In this document: positions 10,937 through 53,796 of the stretch, one piece after another
Numbering within the stretch: position 1 is the first letter of the stretch
Layout of the letters: each line of letters starts with the position of its first letter
NCBI RefSeq assembly: GCF_000013165.1
Contig: NC_007798.1
Location: forward strand, 124,001 to 188,000
Reading direction: 5' to 3'
Length of the DNA: 64,000 nt
From: Neorickettsia sennetsu str. Miyayama
GTDB lineage: Bacteria > Pseudomonadota > Alphaproteobacteria > Rickettsiales > Anaplasmataceae
Notes under the pieces: generated by a model
What the model was told of the DNA's origin: nothing
Databases searched by the model: none
Seen by the model: only the letters and a program-made list of their open reading frames with translations
Position numbers and translations under genes: made by a program

Positions 10937-13900
10937 ATGCGGCGGCAGACATTCGTACATCTTAGAGTACGAAGCGATTATTCGCTCTTGAGGGCAGTAA
11001 CCAAACCTAGGAGAATTGTTGATCTGGCCCGTGCTGCTGGTATGCCAGCTGTGGCGCTCACTGATATTGATACAATGGCAGGGGCGCTTGAGTTTGCTGA
11101 GTATGCTAAGGCTTCTGGTATTCAGCCGATTATTGGGATTGATCTTTCGATTTCACATAATCGTGTTGATTCACGTGTACTCTTGATTGCAAAAAACGAA
11201 GAGGGCTATCACAACATGATTAAGCTTTCTGGGATAGTTTCCTTGCGGAGAGTTGCGCTGAATGAGGTTTTCACACATAGCAAGGGTCTAATTCTTCTGC
11301 TAGGAGAGTTCTTTATTGATGCTATCAACAGTTACTCGATTGATGCAGAAACTTTGGTATCCGATCTAAAGCAAGTTTTTGGTAAGGACCTTTTTGTCGA
11401 AATACAACGTTTGGGTAATCAATCTGCAGAGGAAAAACTTATTCAACTTGGATATGAGCATAATATTCCTTTTGTTGCTACGAACGATGTTCTTTTTCCA
11501 GATACGGATTTCAGGGAGGCGCATGACGTATTGACTTGCATAGGAAGCCTTACGTATGTCAACGATATAAACCGCGTACATTACTCTCCAGAATCGTATT
11601 TTAAAAGTGCAGAGGAAATGATTGCACTTTTTGCTGATTTGAAGGAGGCGCTGCACAATACTGTCTTGATAGCGCGTCGTTGTAGCTTTATGCCAGAAGT
11701 GAGAAGTCCTATTCTGCCCAAGTTTGAATGCGAAATGGACGAGAGCGATGAGTTGAGGCGTCTAAGTTACATTGGCTTACACAGAAGGATGGGGGCTGAT
11801 GTTCCACAAAATTATTTGGACAGGCTTGAGTACGAGCTTGGTATTATCATTGACATGAATTATGCTGGCTACTTTTTGATAGTGGCTGATTTTATACGTT
11901 GGAGTAAGGCCAACGGCATCGTCGTTGGTCCTGGAAGAGGATCTGGAGTCGGATCAATAGTTGCCTGGTGCCTCGGTATTACCGGTTTAGATCCACTGAA
12001 ATTTGCCCTTTTTTTTGAGAGGTTTTTGAATCCGGTTCGTGTATCGATGCCGGATTTTGATGTGGACTTCTGTCAGGAAAAGCGCCATCTTGTAATAGAG
12101 TACGTGAGAAAAAAATATGGTCACGTTGCTCAAATAATGACTTTTGGTACCCTCCAGCCCAGAGCTGCGTTGCGAGATGTTGGAAGGGTGCTCCAGCTAC
12201 CGTATGGTCGAGTCGATAGGATCTGTAAAATGATTCCTAACAATCCCGCTAATCCGATTTCTCTCCAGGAAGCAATAAATCTTGACAAAGATCTCCAAAG
12301 AGAAAGTGAAGATGATGAATCTATAGCAAAGTTGCTTGATCTTGCTCTTAAGTTGGAAGGAACGCTAAGACATACCTCTACCCATGCTGCTGGAATAGTT
12401 ATTAGTGATACTCCGATAGAGGATTATCTTCCCGTTTACCACGACAAGGAGTCAGATATTCCAGTTACCCAATATTCGATGAAATATGTTGAGAAAGCAG
12501 GATTAATAAAGTTTGATTTTCTTGGTTTGAAAACGTTAACAGTGATCAATCAGGCGTGCTTGTTGGTACGCTTAAAAAATCCCAATTTTGATATAGATTC
12601 TATTCCTCTTGACGATAAGAGAACGTATGACCTTCTTTCAGCAGGAAATGCGATAGGTGTATTCCAGTTGGATAACGCATACATGTGTGAGACGCTAAAA
12701 CGTCTGCACCCGGACTGTTTTGAAGATATAATTGCCCTGATCTCGCTTAATAGGCCTGGTCCTATGGCGAATATTCCGACATATATAGCAAGAAAACATG
12801 GAAAAGAGGCAGTCAAATATCCACATCCGCTACTTGAGTCTTCATTGAAGGAAACTTTTGGTGTTGTCATCTATCAAGAGCAGGTAATGGAAATGGTTAG
12901 GCTTCTTGCTGGGTATACACTAGCCGAAGCAGATATTCTCCGACGTGTTATGGGTAAGAAAATACGCGCGGAAATGTCAGAGCAAGCCGAGAAATTTGTC
13001 GAGGGTGCAAAACGTAACGGAATCGAGACAGAAAGAGCTCAAGAAATTTTCGAGATGATAGAAAAATTTGCTGGCTATGGTTTTAATAAGTCGCATGCTG
13101 CTGCATACGCGCTAATCTCATATCAAACAGCCTTCCTCAAGGCTAATTTTCCAATCGAATTTACCACGGCCGCTCTTAACCTTGAATTGCACCATACAGA
13201 CAAGCTCGCAATCCTAATACAAGATGCAAAAAATTATGGTATCACAATTCTGCCTCCAGATATAAATAAGTCAAAAATTTTATTCTCTATTGAAGATAAT
13301 GCGATAAGGTACTCGCTTGCAGCTTTGAAGAATGTTGGAGAAGCTGCAGCTTCAGCAATACAGAGAAGAAGTCCGTTCGCAACAATTCCAGAACTTCAAA
13401 GGTGCTTGGATGGAAAAATAGTTCATAGAAAGGCTGTTGAAAGTCTCATAAAGTCAGGTGCTACGGATGTACTTTCTCCTGATAGGAGTGGACTTTATTC
13501 TTGTCTGAAGGAATTAGTGGGAAAAGAGGATGATGGTGCACAGATGACATTATTTGATATCTCTGTGAACAAACCGGAAAAGACCGTAAAGCCCTGGAAT
13601 TTTTTTGAAAGGACACAGTGTGAATTTGATGCCTTTGGCTTTTTTCTTTTTGATCACCCTCTCTTTCCATATCGAAAGTTTTTAAAGCTTTCTCCGAATC
13701 AGATTGCTGGTGTGATAACTGAACTAAGGATAAGGTCCAGAGGGGACAGAAAGTTTGCTGTGATGCATGTTTCAACAGTAAACGACATATACACTGTTAT
13801 GTTTTACGAGTCCGACGTTATAGATTCCAGACGTGAACTTTTTGTAGTTGGTGTGAAAGTCGTACTGACTCTCTTAAAGAGTGATAATGGCTATGTATGT

Positions 13901-14170
13901 ACCAATTTAGCTGAATTACACGAATTTATCTTTTCGAATTATAACGGAAGATTTGCAATTCTCGTAAATCGCAAAGAACAGGTCACTGCACTGAAGGATG
14001 TTCTAAGGCGTGGTGGTAAGTATGAGGTTACACTCGTTGTGCGTAACGATTCTCAATACACGAGAATTGTTCTAGGACATGACTTTGATCTTGCAGTTGA
14101 CAAGCTTGCATTAATTGAAGGTGTGGAGATTCTCAAGTACAGGGTATGCTGCAGCGATATGATCAATTAG
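10937..14170 (+). CDS. dnaE: DNA polymerase III alpha subunit
   Basis: This is the replicative polymerase catalytic subunit. The N-terminal PHP domain starts with FVHLRVRSDYSLL. The polymerase core includes GPGRGSGVGSIVAW and the catalytic PDFDVDF aspartates, then the HAAGIVIS and KFDFLGLKTL segments and the QEQVM and KSHAAAYALISYQTAFLKA blocks. A helix-hairpin-helix region and an OB-fold follow. At 1,077 residues it is slightly short of E. coli DnaE (1,160) but complete. In the PHP domain the usual metal histidine pattern is partly changed (HLRVRSDYS), as in many proteobacterial enzymes that rely on DnaQ for proofreading. It starts 11 bases after degP. Confidence 0.97.
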   Translation: MRRQTFVHLRVRSDYSLLRAVTKPRRIVDLARAAGMPAVALTDIDTMAGALEFAEYAKASGIQPIIGIDLSISHNRVDSRVLLIAKNEEGYHNMIKLSGIVSLRRVALNEVFTHSKGLILLLGEFFIDAINSYSIDAETLVSDLKQVFGKDLFVEIQRLGNQSAEEKLIQLGYEHNIPFVATNDVLFPDTDFREAHDVLTCIGSLTYVNDINRVHYSPESYFKSAEEMIALFADLKEALHNTVLIARRCSFMPEVRSPILPKFECEMDESDELRRLSYIGLHRRMGADVPQNYLDRLEYELGIIIDMNYAGYFLIVADFIRWSKANGIVVGPGRGSGVGSIVAWCLGITGLDPLKFALFFERFLNPVRVSMPDFDVDFCQEKRHLVIEYVRKKYGHVAQIMTFGTLQPRAALRDVGRVLQLPYGRVDRICKMIPNNPANPISLQEAINLDKDLQRESEDDESIAKLLDLALKLEGTLRHTSTHAAGIVISDTPIEDYLPVYHDKESDIPVTQYSMKYVEKAGLIKFDFLGLKTLTVINQACLLVRLKNPNFDIDSIPLDDKRTYDLLSAGNAIGVFQLDNAYMCETLKRLHPDCFEDIIALISLNRPGPMANIPTYIARKHGKEAVKYPHPLLESSLKETFGVVIYQEQVMEMVRLLAGYTLAEADILRRVMGKKIRAEMSEQAEKFVEGAKRNGIETERAQEIFEMIEKFAGYGFNKSHAAAYALISYQTAFLKANFPIEFTTAALNLELHHTDKLAILIQDAKNYGITILPPDINKSKILFSIEDNAIRYSLAALKNVGEAAASAIQRRSPFATIPELQRCLDGKIVHRKAVESLIKSGATDVLSPDRSGLYSCLKELVGKEDDGAQMTLFDISVNKPEKTVKPWNFFERTQCEFDAFGFFLFDHPLFPYRKFLKLSPNQIAGVITELRIRSRGDRKFAVMHVSTVNDIYTVMFYESDVIDSRRELFVVGVKVVLTLLKSDNGYVCTNLAELHEFIFSNYNGRFAILVNRKEQVTALKDVLRRGGKYEVTLVVRNDSQYTRIVLGHDFDLAVDKLALIEGVEILKYRVCCSDMIN

Positions 14171-14385: not shown

Positions 14386-15630
14386 CTATTCGTCGGATGG
14401 CTTTTTCCTTCTTAGAAGGACGTAATATGCCCCTTCGCCTCCGTGATGCGGCAGTGCCTCTGATACGAATTTGATCAGACCTTGTATTTCGGCGTTGTTT
14501 TCTAGCCATGATACAAAACTTGTCTTGATAACTGCGTCACCGGTTCTTCCTTTTCCGACAATAACTAGAAGGTGACGAAAACCGTTTACGTAATTTTCTA
14601 AAATGAATTTAATTGTTTTCTGGTAAGCGCTTTCCATAGTTTCACCGTGAAGATCTAGTGTTTTATCTATATTGATCTTTCCGCGTTTGATTTTTCGCAA
14701 AAAATCAGGATCCGCACTTTTAGCGAAATCAAGATTATTTGTGTTCAAGCTACTTGATTTATTGTATATCTCGACTTTGCCTTCTATGTTTTGTGTAATG
14801 TCCCTCGCAGGTTTTCTTAGGTTATGACATGGGTAGGCAAATCTGTCTGAAACCTTTGTGATATCTTGTATAAAACTGTCCCAGTCTGTTGTGCTTTCAC
14901 ACTGCATACTCATGTGAGAATTTTCTGTCGTGCTGATAGAAATCATGCTTATGTTGCAAGTTTTACTATCTTCTTTAGACACGTCAGGATTATCCCGAGT
15001 ACTTTCCTTTCCGTGTGAGTGAGTATACATGTTTATGCCCCGTATACTTCGTACTCCCACCTTCTCTAATAATTTTATGGAATGGTCATGTAAATTGATA
15101 GTACATTTCCAGGAAGGGTATTGTACGAAACTCGTGCTTGTATCACTGCTAGGGAGTCCGTTTTTCGTGTTGTTGTATTTGTCGTGCATGTACGGTCCTA
15201 GGACAGCGTTTATATACCTCATTTCAGCGCCAGACTCTAACATCCTAAGAACCGTATTTTGGACTAATTCATCTGACCTATTGAGATCTACATTTGCGAT
15301 CCCTATAACACGGTTTATATGATCAGAGAGTAGTAAAGGGACAGAATTTGTTGTTTTTATCACGAGAAATAGCTGAGGCTTGTTCGTTACAAGCGCGTTG
15401 CATTTTAGGATGCCAGTACTTGCACTATCTGCGAATATGCACACACTGGATTGCGATTGTTTAGGTAAAACATATGCTTTCCCCTGCAATTCCATATGGG
15501 TAAAATCCCTTAAGTTTGTCAGAGAGTCTCCTTCGAGTGGGACATCACAAAGAAAGGAATGTTCTATTATGTGTGTGTTATGCCTATCGAATGAAGGTAA
15601 AGCTATCCCAAAAGCGGATCTCTTACGCAT
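14386..15630 (-). CDS. fusion of degenerate PgeF/YfiH-like domain with Smr domain
   Basis: A single 414-residue frame joins two families. Residues about 15-205 follow the PgeF/YfiH (multicopper-polyphenol-oxidase-like, COG1496) pattern: NALVTN at 78-83, then SVPLLL, then VLGPYM at 143-148, and a ...KLLEKVGV... helix. The three conserved ligand/catalytic positions are changed: the His of QVH is Gln60, the Cys of ADCVP is Ser96, and the His of HAGWRG is Asn113. Residues about 235-414 look like a complete alphaproteobacterial Smr protein, with the basic KIKRGKINID lead-in, LDLHG at 325-329, VGKG at 40-43 of the domain, and HHGGEGAYYVLLRR at the end. Smr domains bind or nick nucleic acids. The N-terminal half is probably enzymatically dead; its present role is unknown. 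Confidence 0.8.
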   Translation of the reverse strand: MRKRSAFGIALPSFDRHNTHIIEHSFLCDVPLEGDSLTNLRDFTHMELQGKAYVLPKQSQSSVCIFADSASTGILKCNALVTNKPQLFLVIKTTNSVPLLLSDHINRVIGIANVDLNRSDELVQNTVLRMLESGAEMRYINAVLGPYMHDKYNNTKNGLPSSDTSTSFVQYPSWKCTINLHDHSIKLLEKVGVRSIRGINMYTHSHGKESTRDNPDVSKEDSKTCNISMISISTTENSHMSMQCESTTDWDSFIQDITKVSDRFAYPCHNLRKPARDITQNIEGKVEIYNKSSSLNTNNLDFAKSADPDFLRKIKRGKINIDKTLDLHGETMESAYQKTIKFILENYVNGFRHLLVIVGKGRTGDAVIKTSFVSWLENNAEIQGLIKFVSEALPHHGGEGAYYVLLRRKKPSDE

Positions 15631-15760: not shown

Positions 15761-16879
15761 ATGAAAGAAAACGCATACTCTTCCGTTACTGTGCAGCAAG
15801 ATGCGTTGACAAGAATTCTTGCGAATCTTGTCAGTGTGTCGACAAGGAAAAGCACTATAGCTTATTTGTCGCATGTTAGGGTGCGTTTCACTGGTACCTC
15901 AGTAGAGTTAACCACAACTGATAATGAGCTTTCACTTACGGATTCGTTGCTGGGAATTGAAGGTGTAATTGATGCAGTAATCTCAGTAGATGCGTTCAGA
16001 TTGTATGAGATAGTCAAGCGTCTTCCAACTGATGTTGGAGTTGTTCTCTCTATTGAAAAGAATAATTTAGTTGTTCGTAGCAGAAGAATAGAGTTCTCCT
16101 TACCATACTTAGATGCAAAACATTTTCCATTGATAAGTGAAGAGGAAAAAATTGGGCAAATTAACTTTGCGGTGGATGAAATAAGGAGTCTCTTCAATAA
16201 GGTGCGGTTTGCAACTTCAACTGAATCGACGAGGCAACATCTCAATGGTGTATATTTTGAGTCGGATGGTGAAAAAATAACCGTCGCTGCAACTGATGTA
16301 CACAGGCTTGCAGTGGCCACACTTATGAAAAAAACGGGTCTTAAGTTTTCTTGCATAATTCCAAAGAAGACCGTATTAGAGATGATCAAGCTTTCTTCGG
16401 GCAAAGAAGTTGAACTCTTTCTTCATGGGAGGGAGTATGTCAGTAGGATAAAGATGGTGTTCGGGGGTGTTCGTTTAAATTCGAAGTTGATAGCCGGTAC
16501 ATTCCCAAATTTTGCTGCGGTCATTCCACACAGCTTCAAGTCTTCTCTAACATTTGATAGAAAGGCTTTAGCGACCAGTATAGAAAGAGTTGGCCTTGTT
16601 TCACCCGATCAGAGTCGTGCAATTAGTATTGGCATTAAGGGCAAGCAGCTTTATCTCGATGCTAGCAATTCTGATGCGAGTTTTGGGCGAGAATCATTGG
16701 AATTAAATGAAGACATCGGTGAGGAGATTAGCATCTATTTTAATCATATTTACCTCTTGGATATACTCTTGGCTCTGGATAATAAAGAGGTGACAATGAA
16801 GTTTAACAATGCAACTTCCCAAGTATTATTTCAGGGTGATGAAAGTGCTTTGTATGTTGTTATGCCAATGGCTTTCTAG
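15761..16879 (+). CDS. dnaN: DNA polymerase III beta sliding clamp
   Basis: The ring-shaped processivity clamp that tethers DnaE to DNA. The 372-residue length and three-fold repeated clamp domains are typical. Visible signatures include TDNELSL in domain 1, FATSTESTRQHLNGVYFE and ATDVHRLAV in domain 2, and the C-terminal ending VVMPMAF, which resembles the usual MPMR/L end that lines the protein-binding cleft. It has its own promoter and is separated from dnaA, recF and gyrB, as in many Rickettsiales; recF lies about 29 kb downstream. Confidence 0.97.
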   Translation: MKENAYSSVTVQQDALTRILANLVSVSTRKSTIAYLSHVRVRFTGTSVELTTTDNELSLTDSLLGIEGVIDAVISVDAFRLYEIVKRLPTDVGVVLSIEKNNLVVRSRRIEFSLPYLDAKHFPLISEEEKIGQINFAVDEIRSLFNKVRFATSTESTRQHLNGVYFESDGEKITVAATDVHRLAVATLMKKTGLKFSCIIPKKTVLEMIKLSSGKEVELFLHGREYVSRIKMVFGGVRLNSKLIAGTFPNFAAVIPHSFKSSLTFDRKALATSIERVGLVSPDQSRAISIGIKGKQLYLDASNSDASFGRESLELNEDIGEEISIYFNHIYLLDILLALDNKEVTMKFNNATSQVLFQGDESALYVVMPMAF

Positions 16880-42239: not shown

Positions 42240-42632
42240 TTACGCAGATGTCCGAAGCCACGTGACAAGGACTTCTTGGCTATTTTGATCGGCATCAAAA
42301 TTCTGAGTTTCTAGCTGTGCCTCACTGACAGAAGCATCTTGACCCGTAGCGCAGGAACACGAAACATCTGGAATGGTTTCAGTCGTTTCAGAGGATCCAA
42401 CCGGTTCCTCGGTTGGTGTTAAGTTAACATCCTGTGTGTCAGCAAGCAAAGTCGACTCAGAACCTTGAACAAGAGGAGTACTAGGCTGAAGCAATCCGCT
42501 AACGTGTATTGGAAAATTAACCATGGTTGAGAACTGCTCAAGAATTGGTATAGCACACCCACAATTCGTAAGATCAACGACGTCTAGCAAACCATTATCA
42601 TCAATCTGAAAAAAAAACATTCCATGTGTCAT
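42240..42632 (-). CDS. acidic hypothetical protein coupled to efp
   Basis: A 130-residue frame starting with an ATGA overlap of the efp stop codon, so it is likely translated after EF-P. Residues 1-50 look folded (FFFQIDDNGLLDVVDLTNCGCAIPIL), and the rest is acidic, Ser/Thr/Gln-rich and probably disordered, with paired cysteines (CSCATG). No signal peptide or helix is obvious. I do not recognise it. Confidence 0.6.
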   Translation of the reverse strand: MTHGMFFFQIDDNGLLDVVDLTNCGCAIPILEQFSTMVNFPIHVSGLLQPSTPLVQGSESTLLADTQDVNLTPTEEPVGSSETTETIPDVSCSCATGQDASVSEAQLETQNFDADQNSQEVLVTWLRTSA

Positions 42633-52686: not shown

Positions 52687-53796
52687 ATGAAAACTCCATT
52701 TGGACTTAAGAATAGCGGTGAGGGTCAGGTTTCTCGCTTGTTAGTTGAAATCGATGAGGACATGGAGAAGTGCCTTAAAACCTATGTGGCGCCAAATAGA
52801 GTACGAAGTTCTCTTTCCCTTTCGCAAGGTACAATTGGACGCAAAGAGATACCTGAGGATGCAATGTCTCTCCTGTTATGTGCTTTGGAGAGAAAACTTA
52901 GCTGCGTTGTGCGGGACTATACAAGGCTCAAAAAGTTGCAGAGAGGTTTTGTCTTTGCAGAATTGGCTGCGTTATGCGTATTCACAGTTGGTAGTTTGAC
53001 TATTTTTGTAGCGTTGCTGCGTCGTAATTTATTAATGAGCAGCACATTGGATAAAGTAGTAGAGATTGCCTTTCTTTTAGGTACCGCTGTTTTTTTTGCG
53101 ACTTTTCTTTTGAGGCGCTTTTTTCTGCCTAGGGTGCGTGCAGATATAGTGAATCGCATTGATTGTTATGAAGAAATACTTGATCCAAAAAGGAGAGGGT
53201 TAAGCGAGATAGTCTGTAAGATAAGGGAGGATTGCAAGCCTTCTTGCCCTACGAGGGACGACAGAATAGCTAATTGCCTCCGGTTTTTTACTCTACTTGG
53301 TGGTTTGGTGCTCGAGGTTTTGCTTGTTGTTAATCTGTTTCGCGATTTCGGCCTGACAAAAGTACGTGTAGGCTTTCTCTTTATGCTGGACGATACGCTA
53401 GAGCTCATCTTTACGCTTGTTGGATTGTTGTGCACATCGCTATATCTCTACTCATATTACTCAAAGCAGCAGAATAAGAGCGTGGACAAAAAAGATTGTG
53501 CTTCAACGGAAAAAACACCGTTTCTGCAAAGAGCTCCAAATGCGCTGTGGGTGTCCTTTGGTGCAGGGCTCCTATCCCTTGGTAATAGAATACTTAGAGG
53601 GTTTGAGGGTACTGGCCTTGCGAAAATATCTCTAAAGGAAGGTGTTATTCGTCTTGGTTTGTTATTTGCGACATTGTTATGTCTACTCGATATATACTTG
53701 ATCTCCAAGACGCAGGAAGAGCTTATTGAGTCCGAGCTTGTTGATGTAAGTGTGAGTGCACGTGCTGTGCCTTTAGTTATAGATATCGTTGCGTAA
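52687..53796 (+). CDS. orphan multi-pass membrane protein
   Basis: A 369-residue protein with about six hydrophobic helices (around residues 92-112, 122-142, 201-221, 238-258, 288-305 and 318-338). The N-terminal 85 residues are soluble and contain helical SxxE stretches; the middle loop has two Cys (CKPSC). Nothing in it matches a family I know. Codon use looks like its neighbours. It may be a lineage-specific envelope protein. Confidence 0.65.
   Translation: MKTPFGLKNSGEGQVSRLLVEIDEDMEKCLKTYVAPNRVRSSLSLSQGTIGRKEIPEDAMSLLLCALERKLSCVVRDYTRLKKLQRGFVFAELAALCVFTVGSLTIFVALLRRNLLMSSTLDKVVEIAFLLGTAVFFATFLLRRFFLPRVRADIVNRIDCYEEILDPKRRGLSEIVCKIREDCKPSCPTRDDRIANCLRFFTLLGGLVLEVLLVVNLFRDFGLTKVRVGFLFMLDDTLELIFTLVGLLCTSLYLYSYYSKQQNKSVDKKDCASTEKTPFLQRAPNALWVSFGAGLLSLGNRILRGFEGTGLAKISLKEGVIRLGLLFATLLCLLDIYLISKTQEELIESELVDVSVSARAVPLVIDIVA

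Follow-up and report, generated by a model that had tools for sequence, protein, structure and literature searches.

The gene at positions 14386-15630 on the minus strand of the window (the whole 64,000-nucleotide stretch of Neorickettsia sennetsu DNA analysed here) encodes a genuine and conserved fusion protein, in which a predicted pseudoenzyme is joined to an Smr protein. In our preferred reading, to which we give a probability of roughly 0.62, an old pgeF-smr fusion lost its active site together with the genes of peptidoglycan synthesis, the dead PgeF half now being carried as a folded passenger or scaffold and the Smr domain being the working unit.

The fused frame and its two parts

As originally predicted, one uninterrupted frame of 414 aa reads through a PgeF/YfiH part and then an Smr part; nothing longer than open reading frames (ORFs) of 97 and 91 aa lies opposite it on the plus strand. 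The fused frame is common to all four of the Neorickettsia genomes compared (N. sennetsu, 859,006 bases; N. helminthoeca, 884,232; N. risticii, 879,977; and the genome G003, 864,092), which, together with a dN/dS below 1 in its PgeF half, argues that it has not arisen by chance. The features of the gene and its surroundings are as follows.

14386-15630, minus strand: fused gene of 414 aa, with a PgeF-like domain ahead of an Smr protein (ORF list; single frame, ATG start)
14932-15630, minus strand: PgeF/YfiH domain without the active-site residues, residues 1-233 (PF02578, TIGR00726, hhalign, low-confidence model)
15013-15489, minus strand: PF02578 core, residues 48-206 (Pfam)
15451-15453, minus strand: codon 60, Gln in place of the substrate-contacting His71 of Escherichia coli YfiH (alignments; role from PMC8844914)
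15397-15399, minus strand: codon 78, Asn in place of Asp89 of the triad (alignments; role from PMC8844914)
15343-15345, minus strand: codon 96, Ser in place of Cys107, the nucleophile of the triad (alignments; role from PMC8844914)
15292-15294, minus strand: codon 113, Asn in place of His124 of the triad (alignments; role from PMC8844914)
14722-14931, minus strand: linker, residues 234-303, including the Trp250 region (alignments; dN/dS 0.50-0.83)
14911-14913, minus strand: internal ATG (Met240), ten codons ahead of Trp250, a possible second start (codon inspection)
14389-14721, minus strand: Smr part, residues 304-414 (PF01713; dN/dS; pLDDT)
14410-14658, minus strand: Pfam Smr domain, residues 325-407 (PF01713)
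14647-14655, minus strand: DLH, the DxH motif, residues 326-328 (alignment; motif role from PMC10897456)
14431-14445, minus strand: HGGEG, residues 396-400, containing the GxG motif (GEG, 398-400) (alignments; motif role from PMC10897456)
14290-14362: tRNA-Gln, on one flank of the fused gene
10937-14170, plus strand: dnaE-like gene, on the same flank as the tRNA (named by eye)
15761-16879: dnaN-like gene, on the other flank and divergent from the fused gene (named by eye)

The assignment of residues 15-205 or so to the PgeF/YfiH pattern, first made from the letters of the sequence, holds under profile searches. PF02578 matched residues 48-206 above its Pfam cut-off (E 4.9e-8; 33.1 bits against 22.9), and this is the single match genome-wide, with no second PF02578 copy in N. 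sennetsu. When the dead N-terminal parts of N. sennetsu, N. risticii and G003 were set against 20 living PgeF rows in hhalign, the probability was 99.3 (E 3.2e-20), and a profile built from 20 living rows found the dead half in the three species at E 1.3e-16, 4.2e-20, and 3.1e-19. TIGR00726, the equivalog model of functional PgeF, was also matched by the dead half (E 1e-8), at 34.8 bits against a cut-off of 141.15 and hence below it. Structure prediction, which had been proposed as a further check, may point to the PgeF fold: a low-confidence model of residues 1-233 (pLDDT 54.7, pTM 0.60), built from a three-row alignment of which two rows were living PgeF, returned only PgeF-family structures among its first 18 PDB matches in Foldseek (YfiH, YlmD and DUF152; best E 3.3e-10). 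A model of the full-length protein had pLDDT below 50 over most of the PgeF half. The likeness to the PgeF/YfiH/YlmD family (PF02578; E. coli YfiH) extends to the sequence profile, the order of the conserved blocks and probably the fold, and includes the groove residue Gln69, kept as Gln58 in the N. sennetsu protein; the differences are fusion to Smr and the loss of the active-site residues and the Ser-Tyr-Arg-Arg motif.

In E. coli YfiH, His71 and His124 contact the substrate, a C107A mutant is inactive, and the triad consists of Asp89, Cys107, and His124 (as described in PMC8844914). Alignments that bring in the N. helminthoeca protein as an intermediate (N. helminthoeca with YfiH, and N. 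helminthoeca with the window) place Gln60, Asn78, Ser96, and Asn113 at His71, Asp89, Cys107, and His124. They confirm the three replacements named in the original prediction (catalytic His, Cys, and His to Gln60, Ser96, and Asn113) and add a fourth, Asn78 for Asp89. All four positions are changed in each of the three dead rows and invariant in 20/20 living rows, including those of N. helminthoeca and of the related genomes G006, G007, and G010. Eighteen columns are invariant among the living rows and six are left once the dead rows join; the 12 that are lost include the four active-site residues, residues next to them in TADC and HAGW, and the Ser and Arg of SYRR. To judge from these residues, the PgeF half is probably a catalytically dead pseudoenzyme. 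Depositors have also named YfiH records purine nucleoside phosphorylase, so an activity other than wall editing may be what was lost.

The Smr part had been predicted to be complete, and it is: PF01713 matched residues 325-407 well above its Pfam cut-off (E 2.4e-15; 56.9 bits against 25.7), the full-length model has pLDDT 90-97 in ten-residue blocks across residues 311-410 (one block at 81), and the DxH and GxG motifs, which have been tied to mRNA cleavage and RNA binding (PMC10897456), are both present. DLH is invariant in the six rows aligned; the surrounding motif reads LDLHW in N. helminthoeca and LDLHG in the other five. Nuclease activity is not a property of every Smr domain, and gammaproteobacterial SmrA is described as lacking the nuclease residues (PMC10897456). 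The best NCBIfam match of the N. sennetsu Smr part is in fact the SmrA equivalog NF033154, although at 66.9 bits against a cut-off of 180 it falls far short; by motif, the Smr domain of the protein is of the nuclease-competent type. By analogy with SmrB, it would most likely bind mRNA and cut it where ribosomes have stalled or collided. It shares a full Smr domain with DxH and GxG with SmrB-kind proteobacterial Smr proteins (PF01713) but differs from them in that its front part is a whole former enzyme. The Trp250 region of the linker, for its part, corresponds in the alignments to the start of alphaproteobacterial Smr proteins that stand alone, where it likewise lies ahead of the Smr domain. 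Other multidomain Smr proteins, such as MutS2 and KOW-SMR (PMC10897456), also join an Smr domain to a partner domain, whereas the partner here is a PgeF pseudoenzyme.

Age of the fusion and loss of the peptidoglycan pathway

The original prediction set the fusion, perhaps through a lost stop codon, beside the loss of peptidoglycan; the fusion was no consequence of that loss. Six genomes carry the fused frame (the four Neorickettsia, G006, and G007), and in N. helminthoeca, G006, and G007 a single frame holds an intact PgeF together with Smr; these proteins have the same architecture and are taken as orthologous, but differ from the N. sennetsu protein in that their active-site residues are intact and murC is present. 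On this sequence comparison, the fusion predates the genus Neorickettsia. The junction in G010 holds a run of ten adenines (C1, about 959716-959743) at which the pgeF frame overlaps the smr frame, and the smr frame read from that run has, by eye, a Trp region resembling that of the fused proteins; the overlap could reflect slippage at this site (on slippage in general, see PMC5009743), an error of assembly or a break of recent origin. A DnaE tree with midpoint root unites G007, G006, G010, and Neorickettsia in one group (100/97), with G006 and G010 as weak sisters (85/87), both flagged for long branches; the PgeF tree also pairs G006 with G010 (95/94) but leaves the group otherwise unrecovered, with five open forks. 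The simplest reading would be that the group's ancestor underwent a single fusion, for which the trees are no proof.

A wider search of 343 Rickettsiales genomes and 289 genomes drawn from the class showed no further PgeF-Smr fusion among the matches listed: at 25 places in the class with an open frame of at least 345 aa and at three Rickettsiales places outside the group (G043, G192, and G240), a PgeF frame was found in 28/28 regions and Smr in none of these frames. In four of the 28 (L244, L245, L265, and L270) the PgeF frame itself measures 243-288 aa. One of the others, in G043 (C1:1222000-1226000; L045, L269), another member of the Rickettsiales, is a 429-aa frame that runs from PgeF into a part resembling peptide deformylase (by eye), with no Smr. 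Two scans of viral contigs for relatives gave no match.

We judged the status of the peptidoglycan pathway on murC and murG. Matches to murC (TIGR01082) are strong in N. helminthoeca (1.2e-106), G006 (2.8e-122), G007 (1.9e-136), and G010 (4.1e-102), weak in N. sennetsu (1.4e-5) and G003 (1.8e-5), where both are taken as a paralogue, and missing from N. risticii. Likewise, murG (TIGR01133) is present in N. helminthoeca, G007, and G010 and absent from the matches of N. sennetsu, N. risticii, and G003, as it is from those of G006, a genome 76% complete. This agrees with published work, in which the split between wall-making and wall-less Neorickettsia has already been drawn (PMC5481527; PMC8406291): N. 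helminthoeca is reported to have nearly all peptidoglycan genes and N. sennetsu and N. risticii very few (PMC5481527), and the latter two are classed as lacking peptidoglycan, with N. helminthoeca taking an intermediate place (PMC8406291). Since electron microscopy revealed no wall layer in N. helminthoeca (PMC5481527), that species may make precursors alone.

The proposed tie between active-site loss and peptidoglycan loss is hence upheld, N. helminthoeca keeping both pathway and residues and the dead clade having neither murG nor a strong murC, a further difference from the living PgeF family. The three genomes with a dead fusion are one clade, so residue loss and pathway loss coincide on a single branch; this is one event and not a replicated correlation. 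Among 33 family genomes scanned for both PF02578 and murC, the murC match is strong (E 6.5e-68 or better) in 17, four of them with PgeF, all with intact residues, and 13 with none (genera g2, g3, and g7), and so the wall pathway does not require PgeF. The remaining 16, with weak or no murC, comprise 13 without PgeF and the three with the fused dead PgeF; in all, 26 of the 33 lack a PF02578 match, which leaves few in which the suggested comparison of separate pgeF and smr genes would apply. An order in which fusion came first and wall loss followed together with active-site loss is well supported by these comparisons, though as one event.

The history that we propose would begin with a pgeF-smr fusion older than Neorickettsia, whose N-terminal half, as the intact residues in N. 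helminthoeca, G006, and G007 suggest, would have edited wrongly charged UDP-MurNAc-amino acids like YfiH while precursors were made. Comparison indicates that the branch leading to N. sennetsu, N. risticii, and G003 lost the peptidoglycan genes and, within PgeF, all four active-site residues along with part of the substrate groove, and the pathway loss would presumably have caused the loss of the active site. The dead half may then have been retained as the front of a protein still needed, persisting as a folded pseudoenzyme, passenger or scaffold, under relaxed constraint, with the Smr domain as the part that, as in SmrB of the same family, would cut mRNA at stalled or collided ribosomes.

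Evolutionary rates and the present role of the dead half

The stem of the dead clade measures 2.18 in the PgeF tree against 0.21 in the DnaE tree (about ten times longer), the corresponding values for the N. helminthoeca branch being 0.31 and 0.14. Residues 48-206 of the N. helminthoeca protein are 43% identical to those of G007 and only 32% identical to those of N. sennetsu, even though 45 genes of the window have a median identity of 67% to N. helminthoeca.

Within the dead clade, dN/dS (Nei-Gojobori; values in the order sennetsu-risticii, sennetsu-G003, risticii-G003) is 0.34, 0.37, and 0.33 for residues 1-233, with bootstrap ranges of 0.19-0.61, 0.25-0.54, and 0.21-0.50, all below 1. The half is uneven: residues 1-148, which held the former active site, give 0.26, 0.25, and 0.22 and residues 149-233 give 0.42, 0.50, and 0.51. 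The linker follows at 0.74, 0.83, and 0.50, and the Smr part at 0.08, 0.07, and 0.07; for comparison, window genes have a median of 0.107 against N. risticii and 0.098 against G003 (46 genes each), and 294 genes compared between N. risticii and G003 have a median of 0.105. The contrast between the PgeF half and the Smr part is inflated by a lower dS in the former (0.16 versus 0.29 and 0.44 versus 0.91), with dN at 0.056 versus 0.024 and 0.162 versus 0.063, or 2.3-2.6 times higher. In a rough simulation without constraint, 3.0 stop codons are expected at the N. risticii distance and 6.2 at the G003 distance; the share of the 4000 runs free of stop codons was 4.5% and 0.2%, respectively.

These values also bear on a different reading, in which the dead half has taken up a new job as a binding module. 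Its target might be a ligand, the ribosome or a partner protein, and by binding the module would steer, recruit or regulate the Smr domain. A frame open in three species where stop codons would be expected, a dN/dS below 1 even at the bootstrap limits, and a burst on the stem followed by slower change all fit such a change of role, and the stronger constraint on residues 1-148 than on 149-233 is left unexplained by a mere passenger. However, the same signal would come from a domain merely kept folded ahead of a needed one, residues 149-233 are only loosely held, and the three-row alignment, too shallow to decide, yielded no new conserved motif. We regard a new binding role as possible but unlikely, and a passenger or scaffold is favoured as the present state of the dead half.

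Considerably more doubtful is the suggestion that the gene gives two products, in which case translation starting at Met240 would yield an Smr protein and the PgeF half would be a decaying leftover. In N. sennetsu and N. risticii this internal ATG precedes Trp250 by ten codons, with GTG at the place in G003 and an ATG just ahead of the Trp in N. helminthoeca and G006 as well, and free-standing Smr proteins start in this region; yet we saw by eye no strong ribosome-binding site before Met240, G007 has no ATG, GTG or TTG there, and the upstream frame has been kept open and constrained. We give very little credence to a changed enzyme using Ser96, a possible nucleophile fixed in the three species, since the equivalents of His124, Asp89, and His71 and the Ser-Tyr-Arg-Arg motif are gone too. 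Faulty sequencing or assembly as the source of the fused junction is rejected as next to incredible given the fused frame in six genomes; N. sennetsu itself offers no sign of it, though the adenine run of G010 shows that such a break can arise.

Significance and two further frames

Neorickettsia offers a natural experiment, in which the same fused protein occurs with a living and a dead domain inside one genus and the state of the domain tracks the loss of the pathway that fed the enzyme. A useless enzyme may thus be protected from deletion by the partner to which it is fused: among the family genomes, 16 lack a strong murC, and PgeF is missing from 13 of these and fused in the other three. 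The case also raises the questions of what role PgeF has in a bacterium whose wall is minimal and whether an Smr nuclease can give work to a dead enzyme domain; were the dead half indeed a binding module, it would represent a new kind of ribosome-rescue or RNA factor derived from a dead cell-wall enzyme. We found no published description of a PgeF-Smr fusion or of a dead PgeF domain in the open-access literature, and neither laccase nor Smr appears as a gene name in the main text of PMC5481527.

Two other frames of the window were compared with their N. risticii counterparts. A 130-aa frame on the minus strand (42240-42632), with no match in a Pfam search up to E 1, has 59% identity and a dN/dS of about 1.16. 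A 369-aa frame on the plus strand (52687-53796), for which a Pfam search gave nothing near a cut-off, has 69% identity and a dN/dS of 0.45.
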